Below are positions 8,684 to 27,540 of a DNA stretch of 39,224 nt, piece by piece. The position numbers were made by a program, and so were the translations under genes. This DNA comes from Devosia sp. (GTDB lineage Bacteria > Pseudomonadota > Alphaproteobacteria > Rhizobiales > Devosiaceae): NCBI RefSeq assembly GCF_030689745.1, contig NZ_JAUYGL010000182.1, forward strand, positions 1 to 39,224, given 5' to 3'. Below the pieces are notes generated by a model. That model was not told the DNA's origin. It was given only the letters and a program-made list of their open reading frames with translations, and searched no databases. Within the stretch, counting starts at the first letter, position 1, and each line of letters begins with the position of its first letter.

Positions 8684-9132
8684 ATGTCAGATGCAGAGCG
8701 GGCCTTCTTCGAACCGTTTGTGGTCGAGAAGGGGCCGAGGCGAGGTCGGCGGTCGCGTCATCAGCGGTTGGTGTTGGCGGGGTGTTTTGGATAGCCCAGA
8801 CGGGGACAGCCTGGCGGGATCTGCACAGCCATTTCGGCACATGGAACTCAGTATATCTCGAGTTCCGGCGCCGGACGCAGGCCGGGATTTGGGACGTGAT
8901 ACTGGAGGCATTTAACGAGACCGGCGCGGGCAACGACAGCGTTCAGATAATCGATTCCACCATCATCCGAGCCCATCAACACGCCGCTGGCGCACAAAAA
9001 AGCATGTGGACCAGGGTCTTGGCCGTTCTCGTGCTGGCTTCTCGACCAAGATCCACCTCCGCAATAACGCCCTCGGCCTCCCCGTCGCGGTTACGCTGAG
9101 CGCCGGGCAGGTCTCCGATGTAAAGGGCTATC
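8684..9132 (+). pseudogene. IS5-family transposase remnant, two frameshifts and no C-terminus
   Basis: The start MSDAERAFFEPFVVEKGPRRGRRSRHQR, then GVFWIAQTGTAWRDLHSHFGTWNSVYLEFRRR and DSVQIIDSTIIRAHQHAAGAQK, are the conserved N-terminal half of IS5-group DDE transposases; the Asp in IIDST is the first catalytic residue. One G is missing at about 8777-8783 (needed to pass from VLAG to GVFW). One A is missing in the run at 8997-9002, after which the frame continues GLGRSRAGFSTKIHLRNNALGLPVAVTLSAGQVSDVKGY. Sequence identity then stops abruptly at about 9132, where an unrelated recombinase tail begins. The left end of the element may be near 8632 (GGGTGATTCAAGGCTG). Non-functional. Confidence 0.8.
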
Positions 9133-9276
9133 CTCGTCATCCAGGTGCTGCTCGGGCACTCCAAGCTTGAGACGACCGCGCTCTACACCAAGGTCTCGAC
9201 CCGCACGATCCAGGCGGTCGCCAGCCCGCTCGACCGGTTGATGGCGCTGATGGCGGACAAGCCTCCACCCACGTGA
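9130..9276 (+). pseudogene. C-terminal fragment of a tyrosine recombinase
   Basis: About 48 residues read ILVIQVLLGHSKLETTALYTKV ... ASPLDRLMALM before a TGA at 9274-9276. LLGHSKLETTALYTKV matches the tyrosine recombinase C-terminal box (LGHxxxxTTxxY), including the catalytic Tyr. The rest of the gene is absent and replaced by the broken IS5 transposase. Recombinases with exactly this ending (TTALYT ... SPLDRL) are often found directly upstream of IS91-type transposases, which is what follows here, so both were probably one element. It lacks the Arg/His core and cannot function. Confidence 0.75.
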
Positions 9277-9280
9277 TCGG

Positions 9281-10483
9281 GTGCGCGCCACCATCGAGGT
9301 CGCCGATATCTTCCGTGCTGCCGGTTCAGCCTATCGGAGCGCCCATGCCGGGCATCTGAGCCTGGACCAGCTCAAGGTCATGTCGGCGATCGAGAGCTGC
9401 CGCACCGCTGCGCTTGGCGGTCACGTCGACGCCTGCACAGACTGCGGGCATCAGCGCATCGCCTACAACAGCTGCCGCAACCGGCATTGTCCCCGGTGCC
9501 AGGGTGCTGCCGCACGCACCTGGCTCGAAGCCCGCGAGGCCGATCTCCTGCCGGTTGGTTACTTCCACGTCGTGTACACCCTGCCGGCCGAGGTCGCCGA
9601 TATCGCCTTCCACAACAAGGCTCTGGTCTACAACCTGCTGTTCAAGGCGGCGTCCGAGACCATGCTGACGATCGCCGCCGATCCCCGGTATCTGGGCGCC
9701 CGCATCGGCATCTCCGCCGTACTGCACACCTGGGGCTCGGCCATGATGCACCACCCGCACATCCACATGATCGTGCCGGATGGCGGCATTGCGCCGGATG
9801 GGCGGTGGCTCTCATCGCGACCAGCCTTCCTCCTGCCGGTGCGGGTGCTCGGCGCCCTGTTTCGCCGTCTGTTCCTGACCCGGCTGATCGAGCTGCACGA
9901 TGCCGGCCGGCTCGCCTTCTTCGGCAAGCTGGCAGGGCTCAGCGATCGCCGCGCCTTCCAGCGTCACCTCGCGCCGATCCGCAAGAAGCGCTGGGTGGTT
10001 TACGCCAAGCCACCCTTCGCTGGGCCACAGGCGGTCCTCGCCTATCTCTCGCGCTATACCCATCGGGTGGCGATCTCCAACAGCCGCCTCATCGCGTTCG
10101 ACCAGACCGGCGTGACCTTCCACTACAAGGATTATCGCTGTACCGGCGCCGACCGGAAGTAGGTCATGACCCTGGCCGCCAATGAGTTCATCCGCCGCTT
10201 CTTACTGCACACCCTGCCACGCGGCTTCCATCGCATCCGGCACTACGGTCTGCTCGCCGGCTCCGCTCGCAAGGACAGCCTTGCCCAGGCCCGCAGTCTG
10301 CTCGAGGTCGCGCCGGCGCCCGACGACGCCGGGGTAACTCAGGAGACCGCCGATCCGCGGCCACCATGCCCCTGCTGTGGCGGCACCATGATCATCATCG
10401 AAACCTTCGCCCGGGGCTGCAGGCCGCGCGCGCCGCCTGCAGCGCGGCAGACAAACCGGGAGACCATCCATGACCCGGCATGA
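9281..10483 (+). pseudogene. IS91-family (Y2 rolling-circle) transposase with an in-frame stop
   Basis: An IS91/IS801-type transposase. It has an N-terminal zinc-binding region (CTDCGHQRIAYNSCRNRHCPRCQ), the HUH nuclease motif within HHPHIHMIVPDGG, and the catalytic tyrosine region YLSRYTHRVAISNSRL. A TAG at 10160-10162 interrupts it after GADRK; the same frame then continues VMTLAANEFIRRFLLHTLPRGFHRIRHYGLLA, the normal IS91 C-terminal part, ending with a CPCCGG zinc knuckle. The lesion is a simple codon change (AAG to TAG would suffice), so it is a recent inactivation or a sequence error. The start is a GTG, five bases after the recombinase stop. Confidence 0.85.
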
Positions 10484-15026: not shown

Positions 15027-16067
15027 TCAGGCAGCCGCTGCGGCGGGCTCGCTGCCCCAGCGGAAGTCGGTGCCGTCGGTCCACATCCGGTGCAGAACCA
15101 CCGCCAGGCGGCGGGCCACGGCGACAATGGCACGGCGCTGGCCTCGCCGCTGGGCGACCCGCATGCCCCAGGCCTTCAGCCACGACCACTTAGCGCTCTG
15201 GGTCAGCAGGACCTGTGCGGCCTCATACAGCATCGTGCGCAGCATGGTGTCCCCGGACTTCGAGATACCGCCATCGTAATCGATCTCACCGGACTGGTGA
15301 CGACGAGGCGTCAATCCGACATGGGCACCCACCGCTCTGGAATGAACAAAGCGCTGCGGCTGGTCCACAGTCGCGCGGTACGTCAACGCAACAACAGCGC
15401 CGACACCCGGCGCCGTCATCAACCGCCGGCAGATGGGATCATGCCGCACGACCTCGAGCAGCATCTTGTGCAGCTTGGTGAACTCCTGGCGCATGACGCG
15501 GCGGATGGTCAGCATCGGCTCGACGATGGCGGCAAGCCTGGGCAAACCTTCGACCAACTCGCGGACGCGCGTCTCGAATCCAGCTTGCCCAACGACGCCG
15601 ACCTTCAGGCCGAAGTTACGCAAGGTGCCGCGCAGATCGGCATCGACGTCGAGCATCTTGCGCTGCACCAGCTTGCGCGCCGTCAGCAGCATGCGCTTCT
15701 CCTGGCTGGCCAGCGTCTTCACATGCACCGGCTTGAACAGGCCGACGCGCATCATCTGGGCAATGCCGCGCGCGTCATGCCGGTCAGACTTGTTGATCTG
15801 CTGCGCCTTCAGCAGCGACTTCATGTGGCGGGTCTCGACGCAGATCACGGGCAGACCGGCTTCCGCCATGCCATTGACCAGCCACTGCGACAGCGGCCCG
15901 GCCTCGATCCCGACGCGGCCGTAGTCCTCGCCAATTGACGTCAGCAGTGTGACGATGTCGTCCGGCTCGGACGGAACCTTCTGCTCGCATATTACCCTGC
16001 CGGCCTCATCAACGACGCACACCGCCGTCTCCAACACCGACACGTCCAGTCCCACAAAATAGGCCAT
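15027..16067 (-). CDS. IS110-family transposase
   Basis: A 346-residue RNA-guided DEDD recombinase. The N-terminal RuvC-like part has FVGLDVS (first catalytic Asp), VGIEAGPLSQWLVNGM (Glu) and NKSDRHDARGIAQMMR (the paired Asp residues). The C-terminal Tnp_20 part has LMTAPGVGAVVALTYRATVDQPQRF and GAHVGLTPRRHQSGEIDYDGGISKSGD, with the conserved Ser region. I chose ATG 16067 (MAYFVGLDVS): it has AGGAGC upstream and starts at the domain; a longer frame from 16118 has no such site. It reads without damage. The long structured 5' non-coding region next to it fits the IS110 subgroup rather than IS1111. Confidence 0.92.
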   Translation of the reverse strand: MAYFVGLDVSVLETAVCVVDEAGRVICEQKVPSEPDDIVTLLTSIGEDYGRVGIEAGPLSQWLVNGMAEAGLPVICVETRHMKSLLKAQQINKSDRHDARGIAQMMRVGLFKPVHVKTLASQEKRMLLTARKLVQRKMLDVDADLRGTLRNFGLKVGVVGQAGFETRVRELVEGLPRLAAIVEPMLTIRRVMRQEFTKLHKMLLEVVRHDPICRRLMTAPGVGAVVALTYRATVDQPQRFVHSRAVGAHVGLTPRRHQSGEIDYDGGISKSGDTMLRTMLYEAAQVLLTQSAKWSWLKAWGMRVAQRRGQRRAIVAVARRLAVVLHRMWTDGTDFRWGSEPAAAAA

Positions 16068-16085
16068 CGCCGTTGCTCCTTCCTT

Positions 16086-16191
16086 CGATGCCGAGGTCAG
16101 GTGCGACCTCGCCAGCATCGTACATGAAGGGGCTGCAGCTTCTCGATCTCAGATCGCGCCGCAGCCGCCGCGATACACCATCTTCTGGTGT
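16086..16191 (-). ncRNA. Candidate IS110 bridge RNA region (three stem-loops)
   Basis: Upstream of the transposase start, three consecutive stem-loops can be drawn. One is ACACCA/TGGTGT (16175-16180 with 16186-16191). The second is a two-part stem: outer GGCTGC/GCAGCC (16131-16136 with 16161-16166), inner CGATC/GATCG (16144-16148 with 16152-16156) and unpaired bases on both sides between them. The third is CGATGC+CGAGGTC paired with GACCTCG+GCATCG (16086-16098 with 16105-16120), with a 3-base bulge. IS110 elements are known to make a bridge RNA from their 5' end with a leading stem-loop and two binding loops. The position and number of stems match; the guide sequences were not identified. Confidence 0.5.
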
Positions 16192-16234: not shown

Positions 16235-17197
16235 CTATGTTAGTTGTGTCAATTTCAGCGCCGTGTCGCCATCGATGACCAGTCCACGGCAGAGGCCGGA
16301 GCGCAGAAGAGCCTTGGCTGCCTTCACCTTGGCAACCCCCGCCACCAAGGCAACAATACTGGCCTCCTTGAGGTCATTGAGTGGCATCGCGATGGTTCGG
16401 CGTGCCAAATCATGTTCGATTGGAATGCCACTCTGGTCGAAGAAGATGCCGTTGGTATCGCCAACGGCCCCTAAATCCCTCAACGCTGTAAGTTCATCCT
16501 TGGTGATCATCTCTTGCTGGCGCAGCAAAGAGTCTTCGGTCAGCTCGCCAACGCTGACATAGGCGACTGTGGTGGTACGAGCGATATCCAGTGCCCGCTG
16601 CACCGAGCGTTGCGATAGCAAAACTTGACGATCGTCGGCACTGTCGGCGATGAACGGCACCGGCAGGAAAAAGCCCTGCCCGCCGGTATTCCGGGCGAGT
16701 GCATGCACCACTTCGAATGGATTATAGGCCGAATTGGCAGTCAGCGATCCCATCAGACTGATGAAGCGGGCGTGCGGCGCACGCATACCGGCAAGCTGCA
16801 ACGTCATTTGTTCTATGGTGCGTCCCCAGCCGGTACCGACGACCGGGTGCGCGCTCTCGGCCAGAACCTTGCGCAGATGCGCCGCCGCCGCCGTTCCAAC
16901 GGCCCGGAACGCAAATTTCTGGCTCAGCTCACCATCTTCTTCAGCAGTGAGGTTGAGCGCTGGCGTGCAAATGCAAAAATCTAGACCATATTCGGCCTTT
17001 AGCGCTTCCTCGATCGGCAAGAGGCCAACATCAGCCTGATTGATACTGATGCTGACCAGCCCAGACTCACGTGCGTCGGACAGCATTTTGTTGACGCGTG
17101 CCCGAGTGATGCCGAGGCGTTTGGCGGTGCTCTCTTGGTTCAAACCAGCCACGTGATAGAGCCAGGCAGCCTTTGCCACCAATTCGGTTTCGCTCAC
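16235..17197 (-). CDS. SorC-family transcriptional regulator
   Basis: A 320-residue regulator of carbohydrate genes. The N-terminal helix-turn-helix is at about residues 10-45 (AAWLYHVAGLNQESTAKRLGITRARVNKMLSDARESGLVSISI). The sugar-phosphate-binding domain follows (VVGTGWGRTIEQM, FISLMGSLTANSAYNPFEVVHALA, and a C-terminal GDTNGIFFDQSGIPIEH). GTG 17197 (VSETELVAKAA) was chosen because GAGGG lies 4 bases upstream and the length fits the family; the open frame extends to a TTG at 17239. It is divergent from the catabolic operon and very probably controls it, likely responding to a phosphorylated intermediate made by the operon's kinase. Confidence 0.88.
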   Translation of the reverse strand: MSETELVAKAAWLYHVAGLNQESTAKRLGITRARVNKMLSDARESGLVSISINQADVGLLPIEEALKAEYGLDFCICTPALNLTAEEDGELSQKFAFRAVGTAAAAHLRKVLAESAHPVVGTGWGRTIEQMTLQLAGMRAPHARFISLMGSLTANSAYNPFEVVHALARNTGGQGFFLPVPFIADSADDRQVLLSQRSVQRALDIARTTTVAYVSVGELTEDSLLRQQEMITKDELTALRDLGAVGDTNGIFFDQSGIPIEHDLARRTIAMPLNDLKEASIVALVAGVAKVKAAKALLRSGLCRGLVIDGDTALKLTQLT

Positions 17198-17232
17198 AAA
17201 GCCCTCATTTCCAGCCAATTGGACCACTCCAT

Positions 17233-17269
17233 AATACAAATGTATTTCTGTTTGACAAATGTATTGTCA
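17233..17269. promoter_or_regulatory. Two palindromes in the SorC/operon gap, probable operators
   Basis: AATACAAATGTATT (17233-17246) is a perfect palindrome. TGACAAATGTATTGTCA (17253-17269) is an inverted repeat with 6-bp arms TGACAA/TTGTCA. Both contain the same core ACAAATGTATT, giving a direct repeat with a period of about 19 bases, close to two helical turns. A TTGACA-like box occurs in each direction (17252-17257 on the plus strand, 17265-17270 on the minus strand), although good -10 partners were not found. The sites lie between divergent regulator and operon, as expected for SorC-type operators. Confidence 0.6.
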
Positions 17270-17339
17270 ACATGCGACGGTTTGATGGTCGGTGGAGGCC
17301 GACCCAACAAATCCTAGGTATCTAGGGAGGAGAACGGAT

Positions 17340-18287
17340 ATGAAAGTTGCACGTCTTGCAACACTAATGGGCGCGTCGGTAATCGCTCTGATGGCAGCCA
17401 ACACAGCTGCCAATGCTCTCGAAATTGCATTCATCCATTCAAATGCCGCCGCGCAGTCCGAGACGCGTGTGAAGGCCGGCTTTGACGCCTGGCTGGCAGA
17501 AACAGGATATGCCGACTGGAACGTCAGCGTGCTCGACAGTGGCGGCACCGGCGAGCGAATTGCCAGCAATATCCAGGATGCGGCGGCCCGTGGCGTCGAC
17601 GCCATTGTGGTGACCATGGCCGATCTGCGCGCCTCCCGCGCTGCAATCGACGCGGCCGTTGCTGCCGATATTCCAATCTTTGGCGTGGACAGCGGCTATA
17701 TCGAAGGCCTGCAGGTCGACATAACCACCAACAACTGGGCCATGTCGGCCGACGTCTCGCCCTACCTGCTGGATACGCTTGGCGGCAAGGGCAACATCAT
17801 CTTCCTGCGCATGGCCGAACACCATGGCACCCGCAAGCGCGGCGATGTCATGGCCAACGTGCTCAAGGAATATCCCGACATCAAGGTGCTGGTTGAGCAC
17901 AACATCAACTACGGCGCCTTTTTCGAAGATACCACTGCCCGCATGGAAGATTTCGTCTCGCGCTTTGGCGAAGATATCGATGCCGTCTGGGCGCCGTGGG
18001 ATGAGCCGGCGCAGGCTGCAATCAACGTGCTGAACGCTGCCGGCCTGACCGACGTCAAGGTCATCGGCATCGATGGCCACCCGCAGGCCGTGGCCGAAGT
18101 TTGCAAGGAAAATTCGCTGATGCTGGCCACCGTTTCCCAGCCTTTCGAAGGCATGGGCGCCCAGGTCGGCCAGTGGATCCAGTCGATCGTAGTGGAGGGA
18201 GGGGAAACCCGCACCGTCATTCCGAACCCGATCGTCTACCTGGATGCTCCACTGGTCACCAAGCAGAACTGCCAGGACTTCCTCTAG
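17340..18287 (+). CDS. Sugar ABC transporter periplasmic binding protein (ribose type)
   Basis: A 315-residue exported type I binding protein. The signal peptide is MKVARLATLMGASVIALMAANTAANA, cleaved after about residue 26. The mature part starts LEIAFIHSNAAAQSETRVKAGFDAW and shows the two-lobed pattern of ribose/xylose-binding proteins (VDAIVVTMAD ... IPIFGVDSGYI; then KVIGIDGHPQAVAEVC near the C-terminus). ATG 17340 has the strong site GGGAGGAG 7 bases upstream. It is the first gene of the operon, and an mRNA hairpin follows its stop. The ligand is unknown but probably a sugar or polyol. Confidence 0.9.
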   Translation: MKVARLATLMGASVIALMAANTAANALEIAFIHSNAAAQSETRVKAGFDAWLAETGYADWNVSVLDSGGTGERIASNIQDAAARGVDAIVVTMADLRASRAAIDAAVAADIPIFGVDSGYIEGLQVDITTNNWAMSADVSPYLLDTLGGKGNIIFLRMAEHHGTRKRGDVMANVLKEYPDIKVLVEHNINYGAFFEDTTARMEDFVSRFGEDIDAVWAPWDEPAQAAINVLNAAGLTDVKVIGIDGHPQAVAEVCKENSLMLATVSQPFEGMGAQVGQWIQSIVVEGGETRTVIPNPIVYLDAPLVTKQNCQDFL

Positions 18288-18299
18288 GCCCTTCTCCCG

Positions 18300-18332
18300 G
18301 GATCGGACGGCGCTCCCTCGACCGTCCGGTCC
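18300..18332 (+). terminator. Intercistronic hairpin after the binding-protein gene
   Basis: GGATCGGACGG (18300-18310) pairs with CCGTCCGGTCC (18322-18332): eleven pairs including one G-U, with an 11-base loop. A second inverted repeat follows, CGCACC/GGTGCG (18332-18337 with 18358-18363). No T-run follows. Such hairpins after binding-protein genes usually stabilise the upstream message or cause partial termination, giving more binding protein than membrane components. That function is inferred. Confidence 0.6.
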
Positions 18333-18404
18333 GCACCTGCCCAACGCCCGGCTTGCCGGTGCGTTGGCGCATGGTTGCACGCGGGTGATCATCAGGATGG
18401 TGCG

Positions 18405-19913
18405 ATGAAAATCTCACTTACCGACATCGTGATGCAGTATCCGGGCACCAGAGCCCTCGATGCCGTGTCCGCCAATTTTCGCACCGATGAGGTGCACGGT
18501 CTGATCGGCGAAAACGGCGCTGGAAAATCGACGCTAATGTCGGTTCTTTCGGGCAGCCAGCGTCCGACATCAGGCCAAATCAGCCTCAACGGCCGGGAAC
18601 TCGCCTTGCGCTCGCCGCGCGACGCCATGCTCAATGGTATTGCCCTGGTCTCCCAGGAAGGCAGCCTGGTTTCGAGCCTGTCTGGCGCCGAGAACATTAT
18701 GCTCGGCGAAGAGCCGCGGCATGCCGGCAGCGTCATCCGACGGAACCACCTCAACCAACAGGCAGCAAAGCTGCTAGAAACCTGGTTCCCTGGCATTGGC
18801 ATCGATCTCGGCGCCCAGGTGGGCAGCCTGCCGATGGCCGACCAAAAGGTCATCGAGATCGTGCGCGCCCTCCGCGGCGACGTGCGCCTGCTGATCCTCG
18901 ATGAGCCCACCGCCACGCTGCCGAGCCGCGAAAAGGAACGCCTGTGGTCGATCATCCGCAGCCTGCCGCAGCGCGGTGTTGGCGTCGTGCTGATCAGCCA
19001 TTTCCTGTCCGAGATTTTCGCGCTCTCGAACCGCATCACCGTGCTGCGCGACGGCCGCCATGTCGGCACCCTCAATGCCAGCGATGTCAGCGAAGACCAC
19101 CTGGTCGATCTCATGTTGCGCCGCACCGGCGGGCAGACGAGCGATGAGCAGGTAACAACCCGCGACGCGCTCGGGACGGAGGTTCTGGCTGTTACCAATT
19201 GGCGTGTCGGGCGTATCGCAATACCGGCATTCACCCTCAGGGCCGGCGAAATCGTCGGGCTGATCGGGCTGACCGGGTCGGGTCATTTCGGCTTTGCTCG
19301 CTCATTGCACAATCCCGCCGGCGTGCTGTCGGGGACCATCGCGATCAACGGCAAGCCGGCCAGCCTAGGCGGCCCCCGCGACATGCAGCGGTCCGGCATC
19401 GCACTGGTGCCCGACCATCGCATGGAGAACGCCCTGATTGGCGAATGGGACCTGCGCGAGAACCTCTCCATGGTTCATCCCGAACATGGCTCCCGTGGCC
19501 TCGGCATTCTGTCGATGACCAAGGAAAACGCTGAAACCGCGCGCATCTTCAAGCTGCTCAACGTCAAGGCGCACTCCCCTCGTCAGCTCCTGTCGAGCCT
19601 GTCGGGTGGCAACAAGCAGAAGATTTCCATCGGCAAGTGGCTCTACGGCGCGCGCGATCGTTACCGGGTCATGGTGTTCATCGAGCCCACCGAAGGTGTC
19701 GATATCGGCGCCAAGAAGGAAATCTATGCCGAAATGCGCCGCCTGGCCGCCACCGGCATGGGCATCATCATTGCATCATCTGACCTGCTCGAGATCGAGC
19801 AGGTCACAGACCGGGTCATCCCCTTCGTTGCCGGCAAGCCCGGCGCCGAGATTACCCGCAACGATTTTTCCGAAGCCGCGTTCATCGCGGCCATGTCTGG
19901 AGGTTCACAATGA
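18405..19913 (+). CDS. Sugar ABC transporter ATP-binding protein (two NBDs, RbsA/XylG type)
   Basis: A 502-residue protein with two fused ATPase domains. The first has Walker A GENGAGKST (residues 35-43), Walker B LLILDEPTATLPS and the H-loop ISHFLSEI; its signature is degenerate (SLPMADQKVIEIVRAL), as usual. The second has the degenerate P-loop GLTGSGHFG, the good signature LSGGNKQK and IEPTEGVDIGAKKEIY. This asymmetric pattern is normal for ribose-type importers. ATG 18405 (MKISLTDIV) is preferred over the frame's earlier start at 18375. The 3' end overlaps the permease start by four bases (ATGA). Confidence 0.92.
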   Translation: MKISLTDIVMQYPGTRALDAVSANFRTDEVHGLIGENGAGKSTLMSVLSGSQRPTSGQISLNGRELALRSPRDAMLNGIALVSQEGSLVSSLSGAENIMLGEEPRHAGSVIRRNHLNQQAAKLLETWFPGIGIDLGAQVGSLPMADQKVIEIVRALRGDVRLLILDEPTATLPSREKERLWSIIRSLPQRGVGVVLISHFLSEIFALSNRITVLRDGRHVGTLNASDVSEDHLVDLMLRRTGGQTSDEQVTTRDALGTEVLAVTNWRVGRIAIPAFTLRAGEIVGLIGLTGSGHFGFARSLHNPAGVLSGTIAINGKPASLGGPRDMQRSGIALVPDHRMENALIGEWDLRENLSMVHPEHGSRGLGILSMTKENAETARIFKLLNVKAHSPRQLLSSLSGGNKQKISIGKWLYGARDRYRVMVFIEPTEGVDIGAKKEIYAEMRRLAATGMGIIIASSDLLEIEQVTDRVIPFVAGKPGAEITRNDFSEAAFIAAMSGGSQ

Positions 19914-20899
19914 CCGTGTCCGGAACCGTTCAGCAGAACGATGACCGCATATTCGGGGTCATCCGCAAGGAATGGATCCAGAAATACAGCACCCTCGTGG
20001 CGCTGGTTCTGATCTTTCTCGTCTTCTCGATTACCGTAAATCGCTTCCTGACGCCGCTCAACCTACTCAATATCATGCAGCAGATATCCATGCTCACCAT
20101 CGTCGGCGCCGGCCTGACCTTTGGCTTTGCCGCCCGCGAAATGGATCTGTCCGTGGGCTATACGGTCGGTCTGGCCGGCATCCTGGTGCCGCTATTGCTG
20201 ACCTGGGGCGTGCCCCTGCCCATCGCCGTTCTTGGCGGACTGGGCGCCGGTCTGGTCGTTGGCGCCGTCAACGCCGCTCTGGTGACGCTGGTCGGCGTTC
20301 CCTCGCTGATTGCCACGCTTGCCGTCGGATCGATCATCTTCGGCATCAACTATCTGGTGACCGGTGGTCGCGCCATCTACGGCTCCCTGCCTGCTGAATA
20401 TCTCTGGCTTGGCCAAGGACGTGTTTTCGGTATTCCTGTGCTTGCCTTCTTCATGTTCGGCTGCGTTGCTGTCGCCTGGTTCATCATGGAGCGGACGATT
20501 TTTGGCCGCTACGTCTATGCGGTTGGCGGCAACCAGAAGGCTGCCGAACTCTCAGGCGTCAACGTGCGACTCTACCGTGCCGCTGCCATGGTGGTCTGTT
20601 CGCTGTTTGCGGTGATTGCCGGCACACTGCTGGCCGCCCGCCTTGGCTCAGGCCAGCCCAATGCTGGCGAAAACTACCTGCTCGATGGCTTGGCGACTGT
20701 GTTCATCGGCATGACCATGCTGCGTCCCGGAACGGCCACCATCCTGGGCACCCTGCTCGGCGCACTGTTCATCGGCATCATCAACAATGGCCTCAACCTG
20801 ATGGGCATGGATACATACATCCAGTCGATCGTGAAGGGCATCATCATCCTGGTCGCCGTGGCCATCGTGTCGCGCACGACCAAGCTCAAACTTCTATAA
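19910..20899 (+). CDS. Sugar ABC transporter permease (RbsC type)
   Basis: A 329-residue inner-membrane protein of the BPD_transp_2 family with about eight to ten helices. Recognisable segments are FVFSITVNRFLTPLNLLNIMQQISMLTIVGAGLTF (cut here by family logic into helix and loop), REMDLSVGYTVGLAG, VNAALVTLVGVPSLIATLAVGSIIFGINYLVTGG and the conserved GGNQKAAELSGVNVRLYR loop near residue 205. It would form a homodimeric channel with the binding protein and ATPase upstream. It overlaps the ATPase gene by four bases. E1 alpha follows after ten bases. Confidence 0.9.
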   Translation: MTVSGTVQQNDDRIFGVIRKEWIQKYSTLVALVLIFLVFSITVNRFLTPLNLLNIMQQISMLTIVGAGLTFGFAAREMDLSVGYTVGLAGILVPLLLTWGVPLPIAVLGGLGAGLVVGAVNAALVTLVGVPSLIATLAVGSIIFGINYLVTGGRAIYGSLPAEYLWLGQGRVFGIPVLAFFMFGCVAVAWFIMERTIFGRYVYAVGGNQKAAELSGVNVRLYRAAAMVVCSLFAVIAGTLLAARLGSGQPNAGENYLLDGLATVFIGMTMLRPGTATILGTLLGALFIGIINNGLNLMGMDTYIQSIVKGIIILVAVAIVSRTTKLKLL

Positions 20900-20909
20900 G
20901 GAGCGCATT

Positions 20910-21935
20910 TTGACCTCCCCGGCTACCAATTCCCAACTTTACGACTTCTATGCCGGCATGCGCCGAGTCCGCACCTTCGAGGAACGCGTGGGCGAGCTGT
21001 TTGTGCGTGGCCATTCGGCCGGCTCGATGCTGCACCTGTCGATCGGTGAAGAAAGCGCGGCGATCGGCGTCTGCTCGGCGATGAAGCCGCAGGACACTTT
21101 CACGACCCATCATCGCGGCCATGGCATTTTCCTGGCACGCGGTGCCGAACCGGCCCGCATGATGGCGGAAATCGGCGGCAAGGAAGCCGGCTACTGCCAC
21201 GGCAAGGGCGGCTCCATGCATATTGCCGACATGTCGCTCGGCCACCTGGGCGCCAATGCCATCGTTGGCGGCGGTATTCCCGCAGTCGTCGGCGCAGGCC
21301 TTTCCGCCAAGATCAAGAAGACCGGCGGTGTGTCCGTCGCGTTTTTCGGCGACGGTGCCATGCAGCAGGGCATTCTCTACGAGAGCATGAACATGGCAGC
21401 CCTCTGGGACCTGCCGGTGCTCTTCGTCTGCATCAACAACCAATATGGCATGGGCACGCGCATCGACCAGGCCACGCGCAACACCAATCTGCATGAGCGC
21501 GCTTTGGCCTTTGGCCTCGAGGGCCGCAGCGTTGACGGCATCGATGTCGAAGTCGTTGCCGAGGCGGCACGCGAGCTAATGGACCAGGCCCGCGCAGGCC
21601 GTCCGGGCTTCCTCGCAGTGTCCTGTTATCGGTTCTACGGCCATGCCCGCAAGGACAAGAGCCCCTACCGTGATCCGGCGGAAGAAGAAGCCGGTCGCCT
21701 ACGTGATCCAGTGGCGCATGCCCGCGCACAGTTGGTGAGCGCCGGCGTCGTGCCTGAAGCCCAGCTCGATACGCTGGACGCCGAGATCGCCGCTGAAATG
21801 GATGCCACCATCGACTTTACCGTCGCACAGTCCGAGCCCCCGCTCGCGTCCATGTTCCGCGATGTTTACGCCCCCGAGGAGCCCGAGCCAGAACCGCTGC
21901 GGACCCGCCTCGATCGCGTTCTTGCCAGGGAATAG
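20910..21935 (+). CDS. Thiamine-diphosphate dehydrogenase E1 alpha subunit (pyruvate/acetoin dehydrogenase type)
   Basis: A 341-residue E1 alpha of the 2-oxo acid/acetoin dehydrogenase family. The ThDP-binding motif starts GDG at 147-149 (VAFFGDGAMQQG) and ends NN at 176-177 (LFVCINNQYGMGT). HHRGHG (67-72) and GKGGSMHI (98-105) are typical active-site parts. The start is a TTG at 20910 with AAGGAG just upstream; no ATG fits better. It is followed by E1 beta after four bases. Placement behind a sugar importer and with a hydrolase-type E2 favours a non-pyruvate substrate, probably an acetoin-like alpha-hydroxyketone. Confidence 0.9.
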   Translation: MTSPATNSQLYDFYAGMRRVRTFEERVGELFVRGHSAGSMLHLSIGEESAAIGVCSAMKPQDTFTTHHRGHGIFLARGAEPARMMAEIGGKEAGYCHGKGGSMHIADMSLGHLGANAIVGGGIPAVVGAGLSAKIKKTGGVSVAFFGDGAMQQGILYESMNMAALWDLPVLFVCINNQYGMGTRIDQATRNTNLHERALAFGLEGRSVDGIDVEVVAEAARELMDQARAGRPGFLAVSCYRFYGHARKDKSPYRDPAEEEAGRLRDPVAHARAQLVSAGVVPEAQLDTLDAEIAAEMDATIDFTVAQSEPPLASMFRDVYAPEEPEPEPLRTRLDRVLARE

Positions 21936-21939
21936 CGCC

Positions 21940-22914
21940 ATGACCGAAATGACCTACCGCGATGCGCTGCGCAAGGCGCTGTACGATGCCATGACCGAAG
22001 ACCCGAGCGTGATCCTGCTTGGCGAGGAAGTCGGTCGCTATGGCGGCGCTTATGGTGTCACCAAGGACCTGATCAAGGAATTCGGTGCCGAGCGCGTCAT
22101 CGATACACCGATCTCCGAACCCGCTATCGTCGGTGCCGCGGTTGGCGCTGCCATGACCGGACTGCGTCCGGTGGCCGAGCTGATGTATGTCGACTTCATC
22201 GGCATGACCATGGACCAGCTGGGCAATCAGGCGGCCAAGATCCGCTACATGTTTGGCGGCCAGATCGGCGTGCCGATGGTATTGCGCACCCAAGGCGGCA
22301 CCGGCCGTTCCGCTGGCGCCCAGCACTCGCAGAGCCTTGAAGCCCTCGTCATGCATACGCCGGGCCTGCGCCTTGCCATGCCGGCAACGGTGGAAGATGC
22401 CTATCACCTGCTGCGCCAGAGCCTGAGGCGCCCCGACCCGGTCGTCTTCATCGAGCACAAGGCGCTCTATACAATGAAGGCCGATGTCGATCTCGACGCC
22501 GAACCCCTGCCCTGGGGCAAAGCCGCCGTGCGTCGCCATGGCAAGGACATCGTTATCGTCACTTACTCGCGGCAGCTGCATTACGCCCTCAAGGCGGCCG
22601 ATCAGCTTGCAAAGAGGGGTATTGAGGCGACCGTCATCGACCTGCGCACCCTTAATCCGCTCGATTTCGATACGATCCGCGAACATGTCCAGGCTGTCGG
22701 CCGCTGCATGGTGGTCAGCGAAGGTGTGCTAACGTCCGGCGTTGCCGCGGAACTGGCCGCGCGCATCACCGAGGAGTGCTTCGACTATCTGGAGGACCCG
22801 GTCGTGCGCGTCGCCGGCGAGGACATCCCGATTTCCGTGTCCGCTACACTCGAAGCCGGCAGCGTGCCGAATGCCAATCTCATCGAAAATGTCGCCGGAC
22901 GCATGGTGGCATGA
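21940..22914 (+). CDS. Thiamine-diphosphate dehydrogenase E1 beta subunit
   Basis: A 324-residue partner of E1 alpha, together forming the alpha2-beta2 decarboxylating or ketol-cleaving component. It starts MTEMTYRDALRKALYDAM and carries LLGEEVGRYGGAYGVTKDL (about 27-44), IDTPISEPAIVGAAVGAAM with the ThDP-activating Glu at 60, and the C-terminal transketolase half (VVSEGVLTSGVAAELAARI). ATG 21940 lies just after the E1 alpha stop; a longer frame from 21802 is only a shadow within E1 alpha. The 3' end overlaps the E2 start (ATGA). Confidence 0.9.
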   Translation: MTEMTYRDALRKALYDAMTEDPSVILLGEEVGRYGGAYGVTKDLIKEFGAERVIDTPISEPAIVGAAVGAAMTGLRPVAELMYVDFIGMTMDQLGNQAAKIRYMFGGQIGVPMVLRTQGGTGRSAGAQHSQSLEALVMHTPGLRLAMPATVEDAYHLLRQSLRRPDPVVFIEHKALYTMKADVDLDAEPLPWGKAAVRRHGKDIVIVTYSRQLHYALKAADQLAKRGIEATVIDLRTLNPLDFDTIREHVQAVGRCMVVSEGVLTSGVAAELAARITEECFDYLEDPVVRVAGEDIPISVSATLEAGSVPNANLIENVAGRMVA

Positions 22915-24155
22915 CCATGCTCACTCTCACCATGCCCCGGCTGGGCGAGACGATGGAAGAAGGCATTGTCACCAACTGGCTGGTCGCCCCCGGCCAGGCC
23001 TTCAAGCGCGGCGATCCCTTGGTCGAAATCGAGACCGACAAGACCCTGGTGGAATTTCCGGCGCTGGGCGACGGCACCATGCTCGAGCCTCTGGTGACGT
23101 CCGATACCAAGGTCGCCGTTGGCGAGCCGATCGCCCGCATCACTCCCGCCAACCTGGCGGACTGGGCGGAATCCAGCCTGCCGGAAGAGACCACGGCGGA
23201 AGCACCGCCAGCTGGGGTAGTGGAAGAAAGTGCACCGTCACCTGTTGCAACGCCGGTGTTCGCCGAGGCTGATGGTCCAATTCGCGCCACGCCGGTGGCG
23301 CGTCGTCTGGCACGCAATGCCGGTATCGATCTGCGCAGCATTCCGGGAACCGGTCGCCGCAGTCGCATCGAGCGGGGAGACGTCGAAACGGCAATCGCCG
23401 GTGGCAATGCCACCAGGCGTGAACCTGGCAAGACGGGCGAAGGCACGGTGTTGTTGATCCACGGCTTTGCTGGCGATGGCCGCGCTTGGCTGCGGCTGGC
23501 ATCGCTGCTGCAGCGTGATGGTCTCGCCGTTCACACCCCTGACCTGCCGGGCCATGGTCGCAGCACGGTCATGGCCACCAATGTGCCGGACCTGGTCACG
23601 GACATGGTCAGTTTCGCGGCCACGCTCTCCGGCGAACTTCATATCGCAGGCCATTCGCTGGGCGGCGCCGTTGCCGCGCAGTTGGCCGCCGAACTGGGCG
23701 ATCGTGTTGGCTCACTGACGCTGCTCGCGCCGGCCGGTATCGGCCGCGAGATCGCCACGCCCTTTGTCGAAGGCATGGCGAACCTGCAGACTTCCGGTGA
23801 GCTCGAATTGCTGCTTCCCTACCTTGGCGCCCAGGGCGGCAAGCTGTCGACGGCAGCACTGTCGGAAATGGCTAGCGAGCTCGGCCGCGGTCGCCTCAAG
23901 GCGCTTGCATCCGCGCTCGCCGGCCCGCTTGGGCAGCGCATCTCGATCCATCGCACGCTTGCAACTCTGGCGGAGAATATTCCGGTACGCGTCATCTTCG
24001 GCGTCGATGACAGAGTCATCCCCGCCAGTCAGGCCATGGGCCTGCCGGCCAATGTTGCCGTTCACTACATCGCCAATGCGGGCCACATGCCACAATGGGA
24101 TGAAACCGAAACCGTCGCCAACCTCATCAAGCGCGGAGTTCTGCATCATGACTGA
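22911..24155 (+). CDS. Lipoyl E2-like protein with alpha/beta-hydrolase domain (AcoC type)
   Basis: A 414-residue protein with three parts. A lipoyl domain at about 1-80 has the lipoylated Lys44 in EIETDKTLVEF. A peripheral subunit-binding domain lies at about 123-162 (ATPVARRLARNAGIDLRSIPGTG). From about 178 there is an alpha/beta hydrolase with LIHGFAGDG, GHSLGG (nucleophile Ser249), FGVDDRVIP (Asp) and NAGHMPQWDE (His). The usual E2 acyltransferase domain with its HxxxDG motif is absent. This arrangement is known for AcoC of acetoin dehydrogenase systems in Pseudomonas and Cupriavidus. An ATG at 22917 is an alternative start. It overlaps both neighbours, E1 beta and the AhpD-like gene. Confidence 0.9.
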   Translation: MTMLTLTMPRLGETMEEGIVTNWLVAPGQAFKRGDPLVEIETDKTLVEFPALGDGTMLEPLVTSDTKVAVGEPIARITPANLADWAESSLPEETTAEAPPAGVVEESAPSPVATPVFAEADGPIRATPVARRLARNAGIDLRSIPGTGRRSRIERGDVETAIAGGNATRREPGKTGEGTVLLIHGFAGDGRAWLRLASLLQRDGLAVHTPDLPGHGRSTVMATNVPDLVTDMVSFAATLSGELHIAGHSLGGAVAAQLAAELGDRVGSLTLLAPAGIGREIATPFVEGMANLQTSGELELLLPYLGAQGGKLSTAALSEMASELGRGRLKALASALAGPLGQRISIHRTLATLAENIPVRVIFGVDDRVIPASQAMGLPANVAVHYIANAGHMPQWDETETVANLIKRGVLHHD

Positions 24156-24483
24156 TACCAAACAGGCCCTGCAACAGGCCAAGTCGCGCATCGCCGCTAT
24201 CGCTCAGGCAAGCCCGGAAATTATGAAGGGCTTTGCTGCCATCTCCAAGACAGCCACCCGAGAAGGTAAGCTGAGCAGCGGCCAAAAGGAGTTGATGGCC
24301 ATCGTCGCGGCAGTGGTCAAAGGCTGCGATGACTGCATTTTGTATCATGTCGATGCCGCCAGGCGGCACGATGTCGATCAGGACACCCTTGTCGAGGCGC
24401 TGGAGGTAGCGATCGAGATGGGAGGAGGCCCGGCGGTCATGTATGCCGGCAAGGCTCTGGAGGCATTTCGCGGCCTGAACTAG
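24148..24483 (+). CDS. AhpD-like carboxymuconolactone decarboxylase family protein
   Basis: A 111-residue all-helical protein with the redox motif Cys60-Asp-Asp-Cys63 followed by His67 (KGCDDCILYHVDAARRHD), the AhpD-type thiol site. It starts at ATG 24148, eight bases inside the end of the E2 gene. AhpD of Mycobacterium tuberculosis is known to take electrons from lipoylated E2 (SucB) and Lpd. The coupling to a lipoyl protein here suggests a similar redox link or protection of the complex; this is inference. Small CMD proteins also occur as orphan members with unknown roles. Confidence 0.82.
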   Translation: MTDTKQALQQAKSRIAAIAQASPEIMKGFAAISKTATREGKLSSGQKELMAIVAAVVKGCDDCILYHVDAARRHDVDQDTLVEALEVAIEMGGGPAVMYAGKALEAFRGLN

Positions 24484-24505
24484 GTCGCGAAGGGAGGAGA
24501 TATCA

Positions 24506-26008
24506 ATGAGCTATTTTCTGACCGCCGATGGCGGCACGGAGAGCTTGCGTGCGCGCGTCTATGATCTGGCAGGCAATTGCCTCGGGTCCAAGGCAGTGCC
24601 CTACACGACGCAATTTTCGGCCGGCGCCCGCGCCGAACAGAACCCGGAAGACTGGTGGACCGCACTGGTCGAGGCCAGCCGTGGTGCCATTTCGGCGTCG
24701 GGCGTCAACCCGGCCGATATTGCCGCCATGGCCTGTGCCACCACATCCTGCACCGTTGTAGCTCTCGACCGTGATGGCGACGCCCTGCGCCCTGCCCTGT
24801 TATGGATGGACGTGCGCGCACATGCTGAGGCTGACGCCGTTCTGGCCACCGGTGACGCGGCGCTGCAGATTAACGGCGGCGGTACCGGTCCGGTGTCCGC
24901 CGAATGGATGATCCCCAAGGCGCTCTGGCTCAAGCGCAACGAGCCCGAGATCTACGCTGCAGCGCACACCATCTGCGAGTATCAGGACTTCATCACCCTA
25001 CGCCTGACCGGTGAGCGTGTGGCTTCGCTCGATAATGTGGGCCTGCGCTGGCATCACCGCAATCGCAACGGCGGCTGGGCGACCAGCCTGCTTGCTAAGC
25101 TTGGCATGTCCGAACTTGAAGGCAAATGGCCTGATCGGGTTCTAGCTCCAGGCGAAGTCATCGGCACGCTAACGCAACTGGCGGCTCAGGCGCTTGGCCT
25201 GCCCCAGTCGGTCAAGGTCGTGCAAGGTGGCGCCGATGCCCTGATCGGCATAATCGGCCTCGGCGTGTCCCAGCCGGGCCAGCTCGCCATGATCACTGGG
25301 TCATCGCATCTGCAGTTCGGCGTGACCCGCGAGCCCCTCCATGCCCCCGGCGTCTGGGGCGCCTATGCCGACATCGTCTATCCCAATCGCTGGATCGTGG
25401 AGGGCGGTCAGACCTCGACCGGCTCCATCGTCAACTGGCTGAAGCGCTTCTGCGGCAGTTCCTTCGATTTTGCCGAGATGAATGCTAAGGCGGCCGCATT
25501 GCCGCCAGGGGCTGACGGCCTGATCGTGCAGGACCATTTCCAGGGAAATCGCACGCCCTATACCGACCCTCTCTCGCGCGGCGCCATCATCGGGCTGACG
25601 CTGGCACACGAGCCGCACCACGTGTTTCGCGCTATCATGGAAGGCATCGGTTTCGGCACGCGATCAATTCTCGAAGCGTTCAAGTCGGCTGGCTACAGCA
25701 GCACCGAAATGACCATCGGCGGCGGTGCCAGCGCCTCACCACTCTGGCTGCAAATCCATGCCGACACTTCGGGACTTCCGGTGAAGGTGCCCGCATCTCC
25801 CGATGCACCGTCGACCGGCTCTGCTATTCTCGCCGCCTATGGCGCGGGTCTCGTGCCCAGTATCGACGCCGGGATCGAACAGATGGTGCGTCCCGGGACG
25901 ACCATCGACCCGCGCCCTGCCGAAATAGCGCGCTATGAGGAAATCTACGCGCAGTACCGCGCCCTTTATCCCGCCCTCAAGACCGTTGCCGGAACAAGGC
26001 CATGCTGA
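24506..26008 (+). CDS. FGGY-family carbohydrate kinase
   Basis: A 500-residue ATP-dependent sugar kinase. The N-terminal phosphate-binding motif is DGGTESLRARVYD (8-20); PALLWMDVRA (96-105) lines the sugar site. The catalytic Asp is probably Asp244 in VVQGGADALIG, and the ATP side has TGSSHLQFG, GGQTSTGSIVNWL and TIGGGASASPLWLQIHAD. Length is normal. GGGAGGAG precedes the ATG. It is closest in feel to xylulokinase/ribulokinase-like members; the exact sugar cannot be told from sequence. It follows the AhpD-like gene by 22 bases and overlaps the next SDR gene. Confidence 0.9.
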   Translation: MSYFLTADGGTESLRARVYDLAGNCLGSKAVPYTTQFSAGARAEQNPEDWWTALVEASRGAISASGVNPADIAAMACATTSCTVVALDRDGDALRPALLWMDVRAHAEADAVLATGDAALQINGGGTGPVSAEWMIPKALWLKRNEPEIYAAAHTICEYQDFITLRLTGERVASLDNVGLRWHHRNRNGGWATSLLAKLGMSELEGKWPDRVLAPGEVIGTLTQLAAQALGLPQSVKVVQGGADALIGIIGLGVSQPGQLAMITGSSHLQFGVTREPLHAPGVWGAYADIVYPNRWIVEGGQTSTGSIVNWLKRFCGSSFDFAEMNAKAAALPPGADGLIVQDHFQGNRTPYTDPLSRGAIIGLTLAHEPHHVFRAIMEGIGFGTRSILEAFKSAGYSSTEMTIGGGASASPLWLQIHADTSGLPVKVPASPDAPSTGSAILAAYGAGLVPSIDAGIEQMVRPGTTIDPRPAEIARYEEIYAQYRALYPALKTVAGTRPC

Positions 26009-26754
26009 AGGAATTCGATCTCACCGGTCGCTTGGCCGTCGTTACCGGCGGCGCCAATGGCATCGGCTATGCAGCGGCCACCGCCCTGCGCGATGCCGGC
26101 GCCCGTCTGGTTCTGCTGGATCGTGACGGCGATCGCGTGGCGAAATCCGCCGACGCCATAGGCGCTCAATGGCGGGCGCTGGACATCACCGAGTCCGACA
26201 GGGTCGAAGCGGTCGCGGCCGAGATCGTCAGCACGTTCGGCTCGCCCGACATTCTGGTCAACAGCGCCGGCATGGTGCAGAACGCCCCGGCCACGGACGT
26301 CTCCGATGCCGACTGGGACCGCGTCATGAACGTCAATCTCAACGGTCTGTTCTACTGTTCGCGGGCCTTTGGCCGCGCCATGGTCGCCGCCCGGCGAGGC
26401 GCCATCGTCAATATTTCCTCGATTTGCGGGACAGTCGCCGTCTACCCGCAGCCCCAGGTGGCCTACAATGCCAGCAAGGGCGCGGTGGACATGGTGACGC
26501 GCTCGCTCGCCAGCGAATGGGCGGGCAGCGGTGTGCGCGTCAACGCTGTCGCGCCGGGCTATACGGCCACGGAACTGACCCTGGCCGGTCGGTCAAAGCC
26601 GGAATGGTTCGAGACCTGGCTCGTCGCAACGCCAATGGGCCGCCTCGCCGAGCCGCGCGAGATCGCCACGGCCGTGGCTTTCCTGGCCTCGGACGCCGCC
26701 AGCTATATCACCGGCACCGTTCTCACTGTCGATGGCGGCTATACCGCCCGCTGA
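26002..26754 (+). CDS. Short-chain dehydrogenase/reductase (polyol/sugar type), first copy
   Basis: A 250-residue classical SDR. The Rossmann motif is TGGANGIG (15-22), NSAG is at 87-90, and the catalytic Ser140, Tyr155 and Lys159 are in ISS and YNASK. Asp40 after the second strand (VLLDRDG) indicates NAD rather than NADP. PG at the end of strand six (VAPGYTATELT) and a C-terminal DGGYTAR complete the fold. Its ATG overlaps the kinase stop. It probably oxidises an incoming polyol or sugar; the substrate is not identifiable. Confidence 0.9.
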   Translation: MLKEFDLTGRLAVVTGGANGIGYAAATALRDAGARLVLLDRDGDRVAKSADAIGAQWRALDITESDRVEAVAAEIVSTFGSPDILVNSAGMVQNAPATDVSDADWDRVMNVNLNGLFYCSRAFGRAMVAARRGAIVNISSICGTVAVYPQPQVAYNASKGAVDMVTRSLASEWAGSGVRVNAVAPGYTATELTLAGRSKPEWFETWLVATPMGRLAEPREIATAVAFLASDAASYITGTVLTVDGGYTAR

Positions 26755-26781
26755 CGCATCCAAAAGCCTGAGGAGACTCCT

Positions 26782-27540
26782 ATGACGACGCCATTCCGCA
26801 AAGTTGCCCTCGTGACCGGCGCCAGCCGCGGCATCGGCCGCGCCATCGCGCTTGACTTGGCACAACGCGGCTTTGACGTGGCGCTCAACGATATCGCGCG
26901 CCAGGCCGACACCCTGGCCGAGACCGTCAGGGAGGCCGAGGCTTTCGGCGGCCGCGCCATTGCGCTGCATGCCGACGTGTCCAGCAAGGCGGATGTCAGC
27001 AGCATGGTCGAAAGCCTACTTGCCCAGTTCGGCCGCATCGACGCCGTCGTCAACAATGCTGGCATTCTGATCGCCGGTCCGGTCGAGACGCTCACGGAAA
27101 GTAGCTGGGACGTAGTGATGGACATCAATGCCAAAGGCACTTTCCTGGTGATCCAGGCGACGCTGCCCGCTATGAAACGCCAAGGCTATGGCCGCATCGT
27201 CAACATCGCCTCGATCGGCGGCAAACATGGCGCGCCGGAACAGGCGCACTATTCCGCCTCCAAGGCGGCGGTCATGGGCTTCACGCGCGTGCTTGCGCAG
27301 GAGCTGGGGTCGTCCGGCATCACCGCCAACTGCATCTGCCCAGGCATTATCCTGACCGATATGGGTCGGGTGAACCTCGATGACCCCGAGGTGCAAAAAA
27401 TCTGGCGCAGCAAGACGGCCCAGGATCGAATCGGCGCGCCCGAAGACGTCGTAGGACCCGTGGCATTTTTCTGCTCGGACGACAGTGCCTTCGTCACCGG
27501 CCAGACCCTCAACGTCGACGGCGGCATCGTCTTTAGCTAG
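26782..27540 (+). CDS. Short-chain dehydrogenase/reductase, second copy
   Basis: A 252-residue classical SDR with TGASRGIG (12-19), NNAG (91-94), Ser144, and Tyr157/Lys161 in YSASK. Asp37 (VALNDIAR) points to NAD. It is clearly diverged from the preceding SDR, so the two may act on different carbons or enantiomers, as in two-step isomerisation of a polyol or sugar through a keto form. AGGAG lies just upstream of the ATG. It is the last gene of the operon; no good terminator is visible after it. Confidence 0.88.
   Translation: MTTPFRKVALVTGASRGIGRAIALDLAQRGFDVALNDIARQADTLAETVREAEAFGGRAIALHADVSSKADVSSMVESLLAQFGRIDAVVNNAGILIAGPVETLTESSWDVVMDINAKGTFLVIQATLPAMKRQGYGRIVNIASIGGKHGAPEQAHYSASKAAVMGFTRVLAQELGSSGITANCICPGIILTDMGRVNLDDPEVQKIWRSKTAQDRIGAPEDVVGPVAFFCSDDSAFVTGQTLNVDGGIVFS

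Follow-up and report, generated by a model that had tools for sequence, protein, structure and literature searches.

Within the 39,224-nucleotide contig NZ_JAUYGL010000182.1 of Devosia sp. (Alphaproteobacteria; the whole stretch is referred to below as the window), a cluster of 11 genes (positions 16235-27540) was distinguished which, on balance, is probably an operon for the catabolism of a 1-deoxy sugar, where the sugar would be phosphorylated and then cleaved by a pair of acetoin-dehydrogenase-like enzymes, i.e., a thiamine diphosphate (ThDP)-dependent E1 and a lipoyl-bearing E2. The gene of a SorC-family regulator is divergent from the genes encoding an ABC-type sugar importer (a periplasmic sugar-binding protein (SBP), an ATPase, and a permease), E1 alpha, E1 beta, E2, an AhpD-like protein, an FGGY-family kinase, and two short-chain dehydrogenases/reductases (SDR1 and SDR2). 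All genes named in a first-pass annotation of the bare sequence were present where it had placed them, and the overlaps that it had reported amount to 4-8 bp at four junctions, i.e., ATPase/permease (4 bp), E1 beta/E2 (4 bp), E2/AhpD (8 bp), and kinase/SDR1 (7 bp). The remaining gaps from the ATPase through SDR2 are of 4 to 27 bp, and the SBP-ATPase gap is of 117 bp. We regard the system as a variant of the acetoin/pyruvate dehydrogenase (PDH) kind, standing outside the acetoin dehydrogenase family.

In the proposed pathway, the ABC importer would bring in a 1-deoxyketose or its corresponding deoxy-polyol, SorC would sense the imported sugar or a phosphate of it, and the two SDRs, whose part a ketose 3-epimerase would play in other species, would convert the sugar to the right ketose, to be phosphorylated at its far end by the FGGY kinase. 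The E1/E2 complex would work with a housekeeping E3: the ThDP of E1 would attack the C2 ketone, the C2-C3 bond would be cleaved with release of an aldehyde, and the acetyl group would be passed to lipoate and then to CoA. The putative overall reaction would convert 1-deoxy-D-xylulose 5-phosphate (DXP), or a close relative, together with CoA and NAD+ into acetyl-CoA, glyceraldehyde 3-phosphate, and NADH. All substrates, and the sequence in which the steps follow one another, are inferred by analogy. Passages of PMC3424233 report that pyruvate and glyceraldehyde are converted to 1-deoxyxylulose by purified PDH, that PDH E1 mutants allow enough DXP in vivo, and that xylulokinase can phosphorylate 1-deoxyxylulose; the same source cites, by title, a study by Yokota and Sasajima (1986) on 1-deoxyketoses formed by PDH and acetoin dehydrogenase.

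The E1 alpha (20910-21935, + strand; E1_dh, 4.5e-66) and E1 beta (21940-22914, +; Transket_pyr and Transketolase_C; PRK09212, 359.7 over the cut-off of 321) are of the PDH/acetoin type by family models. The E2 (22911-24155, +) is of the AcoC type, passing the NCBIfam model NF011457 (317.7 bits over the cut-off of 307), and its Pfam domains are a lipoyl domain (ETDKT, residue 41), an E3-binding domain, and an alpha/beta-hydrolase domain (GHSLG, 247). For the operon genes other than E2, the models name families and not substrates. The FGGY sugar kinase (24506-26008, +; FGGY_N and FGGY_C domains) is, according to alignments, ribulokinase-like at the position of the xylulokinase GQMHG motif, and the NCBIfam XylB model scored it at 292.6 of the 380.25 bits required, i.e., below the cut-off, this being the best-scoring kinase model nonetheless.

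The kinase-type operon is conserved as a unit but patchily distributed. The kinase was found in 8 of the 136 genomes of the family, representing 3 of 16 genera (E-values up to 1e-100), and in 14 of the 297 genomes sampled from the order (E-values up to 1e-130). Gene neighbourhoods were compared for kinase loci comprising the best 80 of at least 584 relatives from a scan of named genomes, and the final counts were obtained by tblastn with fixed identity thresholds, the open reading frame calls on the 80 loci being noisy. E1 alpha, E1 beta, and E2 of the kinase-type lineage were identified in 58 of the 80 loci; the remaining 22 include more distantly related kinases as well as contigs that stop close to the kinase. 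In the 58 loci bearing E1/E2, SorC was present in 50, AhpD in 30, SDR1 in 27, and SDR2 in 29, and an RbsABC-type importer was found in 32 (all of them with SorC, the ATPase, E1 alpha, E1 beta, and E2) and missing from 26. The order of the genes is kept, the complete set of SorC, SBP, ATPase, permease, E1 alpha, E1 beta, and E2 standing together in 32 of the 80 loci. The view of the genes as one functional unit, taken in the first-pass annotation, is supported. A transposase-like gene (IS110 type by eye from sequence; 15027-16118, -) directly adjoins the SorC gene; taken with the scattered occurrence of the kinase among genomes of the family, this points to acquisition of the operon.

The phylogeny of E1 separates the kinase-type enzymes from those of acetoin dehydrogenase (Aco) operons and from a third group, typically encoded beside DXR-II, an enzyme interconverting methylerythritol 4-phosphate (MEP) and DXP. 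The first tree was constructed for joined E1 alpha and E1 beta (42 rows, including 3 Aco rows; locus L130 was left out on account of an oddly long open frame), and the second one for E1 beta alone (69 rows: 27 kinase-type, 24 Aco, 15 DXR-II-type, and 3 others), which adds 20 Aco rows, taken from 21 Aco loci, and 6 DXR-II-type rows, and includes the E1 beta of L130. The kinase-type rows are the window and 26 loci, the E1s having been extracted from 34 of the 58 and eight of them left out. In both trees, the kinase-type E1s create one clade (SH-aLRT 100) and the Aco E1s a separate one (SH-aLRT 99); the DXR-II-type rows create one clade in the second tree (92), and two changes would be needed for this in the first. 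The approximately unbiased (AU) test, applied to the second tree, rejected neither a clade of kinase-type and DXR-II-type E1s (p-AU 0.643) nor one of kinase-type and Aco E1s (0.718); a common origin of the kinase-type and DXR-II-type E1s is neither shown nor rejected. A related complex is located on a Clostridioides plasmid (L140:5016-10936), where E1 alpha, E1 beta, E2, and Lpd genes lie behind a sugar-binding regulator and beside glycoside hydrolases; its E1 is about half identical to the DXR-II type.

The groups also differ in the loop following the conserved GH of E1 alpha. In all 58 kinase-type loci it reads GH(A/G)R(K/M)DKSPYR, with an Arg (GHARKDKSPYR in the window). The DXR-II-type loop, with its Lys/Arg, is GHS(K/R)SD in 9 of 9 rows (among them L141, in whose 17 kb no match to DXR-II was found) and in 6 of 6 further loci of DXR-II-type E1. 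The Aco loop, readable in 17 of the 21 Aco loci, is acidic or small, i.e., GHFEGD (14), GHFSGD/GHYSGD (2), and GHYAGD (1). Moreover, the kinase and DXR-II types share HLSIG, as against HLYAG/HLYSG in four Aco rows, and GHLGAN/GNLGAN, as against GM(L/M)GAN in the Aco rows. A basic loop residue would suit a phosphorylated substrate.

The DXR-II/E1 loci were reached via an E1 alpha search of plasmids. Those found carry a glucitol-type phosphotransferase system (PTS), a gene annotated as homoserine dehydrogenase, E1 alpha, E1 beta, and an AcoC-type E2. The supposed homoserine dehydrogenase is DXR-II, the L126 protein matching 3UPY at 8.9e-146; 3UPY is the DXR-II of Brucella abortus, for which passages of PMC3847144 list the residues separating DXR-II from two related families and indicate Thr229 as separating it from its relatives. 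The L126 protein retains G121, K191, K193, T229, H250, R320, Y322, and V351; in the 16 other DXR-II proteins that were fetched, K191, K193, T229, H250, and R320 are invariant, and G121 is kept in 15 (it is Ala in the copy of the window genome), Y322 in 15, and V351 in 14. Among 40 listed of the 47 plasmid records with a match, E1 alpha directly follows DXR-II in 32 (match gaps of 21-152 bp) and lies 8.3 kb away in one (Priestia), and no E1 alpha match of the DXR-II type was found in the remaining seven. Within the order sample, DXR-II adjoins a DXR-II-type E1 in 4 of 6 enlarged loci, L179 and L180 having no DXR-II nearby.

Operons of the DXR-II-E1 alpha-E1 beta-E2 composition were recognised on rhizobial and other plasmids (L143, L144, L146, L148, L126, and L128, with a looser cluster in L145). 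They are accompanied either by a PTS or by an ABC importer plus a PfkB kinase (five loci), and a SorC-family regulator is present in three of these five (the domain was tested for two). Two DXR-II-E1 operons have an E3 of their own, one of them also a lipoyl synthase, and the Aminobacter locus has neither PTS nor kinase adjoining. The kinase-type operon of the window has no E3 gene, and none of the 80 kinase loci was matched by the DXR-II-operon E3 in tblastn. Several loci deviate from the common layout: in L185, which gave no E1 match, DXR-II is located ahead of an E2-like gene and of genes for cobalamin; a Phyllobacterium plasmid (L147:3304-10293) groups a CUT2-type importer, an aldose-epimerase gene, and DXR-II, with no annotated E1/E2 in 19 kb; and in L148 (15805-19290) thiC, thiO, thiS, and thiazole synthase genes lie behind the operon, possibly for ThDP supply or for use of DXP in thiazole synthesis.

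As E1/E2 are encoded directly behind DXR-II, DXP is their likely substrate, and these plasmid operons probably serve 2-C-methylerythritol catabolism. The simplest reading is that 2-C-methylerythritol would be converted to MEP, then to DXP by DXR-II working in reverse, and finally to acetyl-CoA and glyceraldehyde 3-phosphate by E1/E2. Compared with the window, these operons have in common the sugar importer, E1/E2, the basic loop and, in some, the SorC-family regulator, but they contain DXR-II with a PTS or a PfkB kinase where the window has the FGGY kinase and the SDRs, some have their own E3, and their E1 belongs to another group. The first-pass annotation had suggested that the E1/E2 pair could cleave a 1-deoxyketose or its phosphate. 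In view of the E1 lineage, the basic loop in 58 of 58, and the DXR-II operons, a phosphorylated ketose and not acetoin is probably the substrate, and this part of the claim is supported.

Alternative loci of the kinase type offered a further view of what enters the pathway. A D-tagatose 3-epimerase-like gene occurs in 10 of the 58 loci (for the example in L044, the best PDB match is 7DZ5 at 1.6e-142), and it was never found in the same locus as SDR2 (29 of 58; P 0.0004 if the loci were independent). Since the two never meet, either may supply the ketose to the kinase, which supports the earlier suggestion that the SDRs feed the pathway. Eight loci, of which six also have the epimerase, encode a RhaS/LsrB-like binding protein, and all eight proteins retain K37, W43, E118, H167, and S223 of the AauA pocket, the position of E196 being Asp in seven and Glu in one. 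In the passages of PMC12307932 concerning AauA, this protein is described as binding D-ribulose (KD ~2 uM), with E196 and S223 holding a terminal hydroxyl. As the pocket is kept, what arrives at the kinase in the epimerase-type loci is probably a pentulose-like ketose that has undergone epimerisation at C3. Such a ligand fits the alternative importers better than the 6-deoxyhexitol that the first-pass annotation had offered as a possible source.

Several observations weigh against the 1-deoxy sugar pathway. The kinase reads ATTSCTVVALD where the xylulokinase of E. coli has AGQMHGATLLD (CATTSC in the comparison with 2ITM), and with ATTSC in place of GQMHG it is, by motif, not a xylulokinase. 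The kinase-type and DXR-II-type E1s are separate groups, and, with neither grouping rejected by the AU test, the substrate is carried over from one to the other by analogy. No DXR-II match was found in the 80 kinase loci. That the E1 alpha loop lines the active-site channel and faces the substrate is our assumption from PDH structures, and the Clostridioides complex also has a loop Lys, along with HLSVG, so that a basic residue there may be of older origin. As importer type and kinship run parallel to the mutual exclusion of SDR2 and the epimerase, the loci are not independent. If E196 and S223 of AauA hold the C1 hydroxyl, their retention would argue for an ordinary pentulose in the loci concerned. 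Some genes are not accounted for by the proposed model: split dihydroxyacetone-kinase-like genes (Dak1 and Dak2, e.g., L075:16953-18565), Dak1 being present in 14 of the 80 kinase loci and 10 of the 58 bearing E1/E2, and, in L079, which has kinase-type E1/E2, a FucA-like aldolase directly before the kinase (9108-9989) and a CoA-transferase further downstream (19561-20739).

The strongest rival, although we consider it improbable, is that E1/E2 acts on an ordinary ketose phosphate (e.g., xylulose 5-phosphate), giving glycoloyl-CoA and glyceraldehyde 3-phosphate as a lipoate-linked counterpart of phosphoketolase. It would agree with the D-ribulose pocket of AauA kept by the binding proteins of the epimerase-type loci, with the 3-epimerase, which would turn ribulose into xylulose, with the ribulokinase-like motif of the kinase, and with the presence of the CoA-transferase among the scanned neighbours in L079. 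However, the E2 is of the AcoC type, and ribulose enters the pentose phosphate pathway via a kinase alone, which would leave the epimerase, E1, and E2 superfluous; moreover, apart from that CoA-transferase, no gene for the use of glycoloyl-CoA was noticed among the few dozen neighbour proteins scanned, a minority of the neighbours. The D-ribulose systems Rbl and Aau share the importer and kinase with the window operon, and the AauA pocket with the epimerase-type loci; the account of them in PMC12307932, as far as its passages go, contains no E1/E2. The SBP of the window is RbsB-like, and its 36 PDB matches do not include AauA (9I1M). Catabolism of 2-C-methyl-D-erythritol in the window itself, where the FGGY kinase would make MEP, the cell's own DXR-II would convert it to DXP, and E1/E2 would cleave the latter, appears less probable again. 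The host genome does have DXR-II (G000:C82:5806-7098, -; locus L134) and no DXR-I match, the DXR-I model giving a signal in 9 of 14 control genomes, and the DXR-II operons elsewhere fit the scheme, with DXR-II standing beside an FGGY kinase in the Priestia plasmid cluster. Against this, the host DXR-II lies outside the operon, its family is unmatched at the kinase loci, and the scheme has no role for the SDRs or the ketose epimerase. Lacking a DXR-I match, the host probably relies on DXR-II for isoprenoid synthesis, and this copy is probably biosynthetic; a DXR-II match at 1e-80 was found in 3 of the 337 genomes of the class sample, the window genome included.

A variant acetoin or 2,3-butanediol operon with the kinase and importer as passengers seems very unlikely. 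The acetoin dehydrogenase system (AcoXABC and AcoR; Paracoccus versutus pTAV3, L129) shares with the window E1 alpha, E1 beta, an alpha/beta-hydrolase E2, an SDR, and an AhpD/CMD gene, and the window operon has its AcoA-, AcoB-, and AcoC-type genes in tandem, with an E2 that passes the AcoC model; the AhpD-like protein shares 44% identity with the CMD protein from a genuine aco operon, where AcoABC, SDR, and CMD/AhpD genes are grouped too. Nevertheless, the window E1 belongs to a separate lineage with reversed loop charge, AcoX, butanediol dehydrogenase, and the sigma-54 regulator AcoR are missing from the operon genes, their place being taken by SorC control, the sugar importer, and the kinase, and the link between kinase and E1/E2 is kept in 58 of the 80 loci. 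An ordinary acetoin operon was rejected in view of the E1 lineage, the loop, and the missing genes. The autoinducer 2 (AI-2) uptake system Lsr shares a SorC-type regulator, a CUT2 importer, and an FGGY kinase with the window, and its end products, acetyl-CoA and a triose phosphate, are those of the proposed pathway; the window operon, however, has no LsrF/LsrG gene, and an Lsr/AI-2 system was rejected as the AI-2 kinase (LsrK) and LsrR models scored far below their cut-offs (175.4 of 528 and 102.5 of 486 bits, respectively). As to an apulose-type transketolase pathway, whose branched pentulose could be cleaved likewise, the literature search returned nothing and no specific test was made.

The remaining genes are consistent with uptake and conversion of a sugar. 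The SorC-family regulator (16235-17239, -) was recognised by its Sugar-bind domain (PF04198, 1.8e-52), DeoR/LsrR models scoring below cut-off. The SBP (17340-18287, +) is a periplasmic RbsB-like protein of the CUT2 type (Peripla_BP_4, 5.1e-31; RbsB model, 74.5 of 337 bits), and neither the model scores nor the PDB matches allowed its ligand to be read from the sequence. It is accompanied by the importer ATPase (18405-19913, +; ABC_tran in two stretches, AraG/XylG/RbsA-type models below their cut-offs) and permease (19910-20899, +; BPD_transp_2, 1.6e-37). A link to lipoamide is known for mycobacterial AhpD, and the AhpD/CMD-like protein (24148-24483, +; CMD, 8.3e-19), with its CxxCxxxH motif present as CDDCILYH at residue 60, is perhaps a lipoamide-coupled peroxidase or reductase. 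SDR1 (26002-26754, +) resembles polyol/ketose or butanediol-type dehydrogenases (GolD/DthD, gluconate 5-dehydrogenase, and BudC models at 223-225 bits, below their cut-offs), and SDR2 (26782-27540, +) is a FabG/acetoin-reductase-type dehydrogenase (adh_short_C2, 7.2e-69).

Comparison of the SorC-SBP intergenic regions revealed operator-like sites. ACAAATGTA occurs twice in the window (17236-17244 and 17255-17263), the copies being 19 bp apart and the second one sitting within an inverted repeat, TTGACAA-N5-TTGTCAA (17252-17270). On either strand, ACAANTGTA was present in 29 of 31 SorC-SBP intergenic regions, that of the window included (letter-shuffle mean 0.15, maximum 2), and two copies 19 bp apart were found in 10 of the 31 SorC-importer regions; it was not found in the five type II (epimerase) regions examined. 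ACAAATGTA also lies upstream of DXR-II in 3 of 6 DXR-II/E1 loci examined, a count with no chance control. The TTG listed as the start of SorC falls within an operator-like site, and the true start probably lies downstream of it.

The first-pass annotation knew of no described pathway with this gene set, and our literature search likewise found none: among the matches listed from open-licence PMC papers, neither the operon nor a dehydrogenase complex cleaving 1-deoxyketose phosphates was described, nor was DXR-II-based catabolism of 2-C-methylerythritol. Tentatively, we propose that the kinase-type and DXR-II-linked complexes quite possibly, though we stop short of probably, represent an undescribed class of ThDP/lipoate enzymes, i.e., acyl-transferring 1-deoxyketose-5-phosphate dehydrogenases, which would reverse the first step of isoprenoid synthesis with CoA and NAD. 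The class would comprise at least two groups of E1, one, that of the window, supplied by a kinase together with SDRs or a ketose 3-epimerase, and the other fed from MEP by DXR-II working in reverse. If this is true, bacteria could feed on the deoxyxylulose and methylerythritol that plants, algae, and other microbes release, and many genes annotated as acetoin dehydrogenase or pyruvate dehydrogenase in rhizobial and marine Alphaproteobacteria would act on sugar phosphates.

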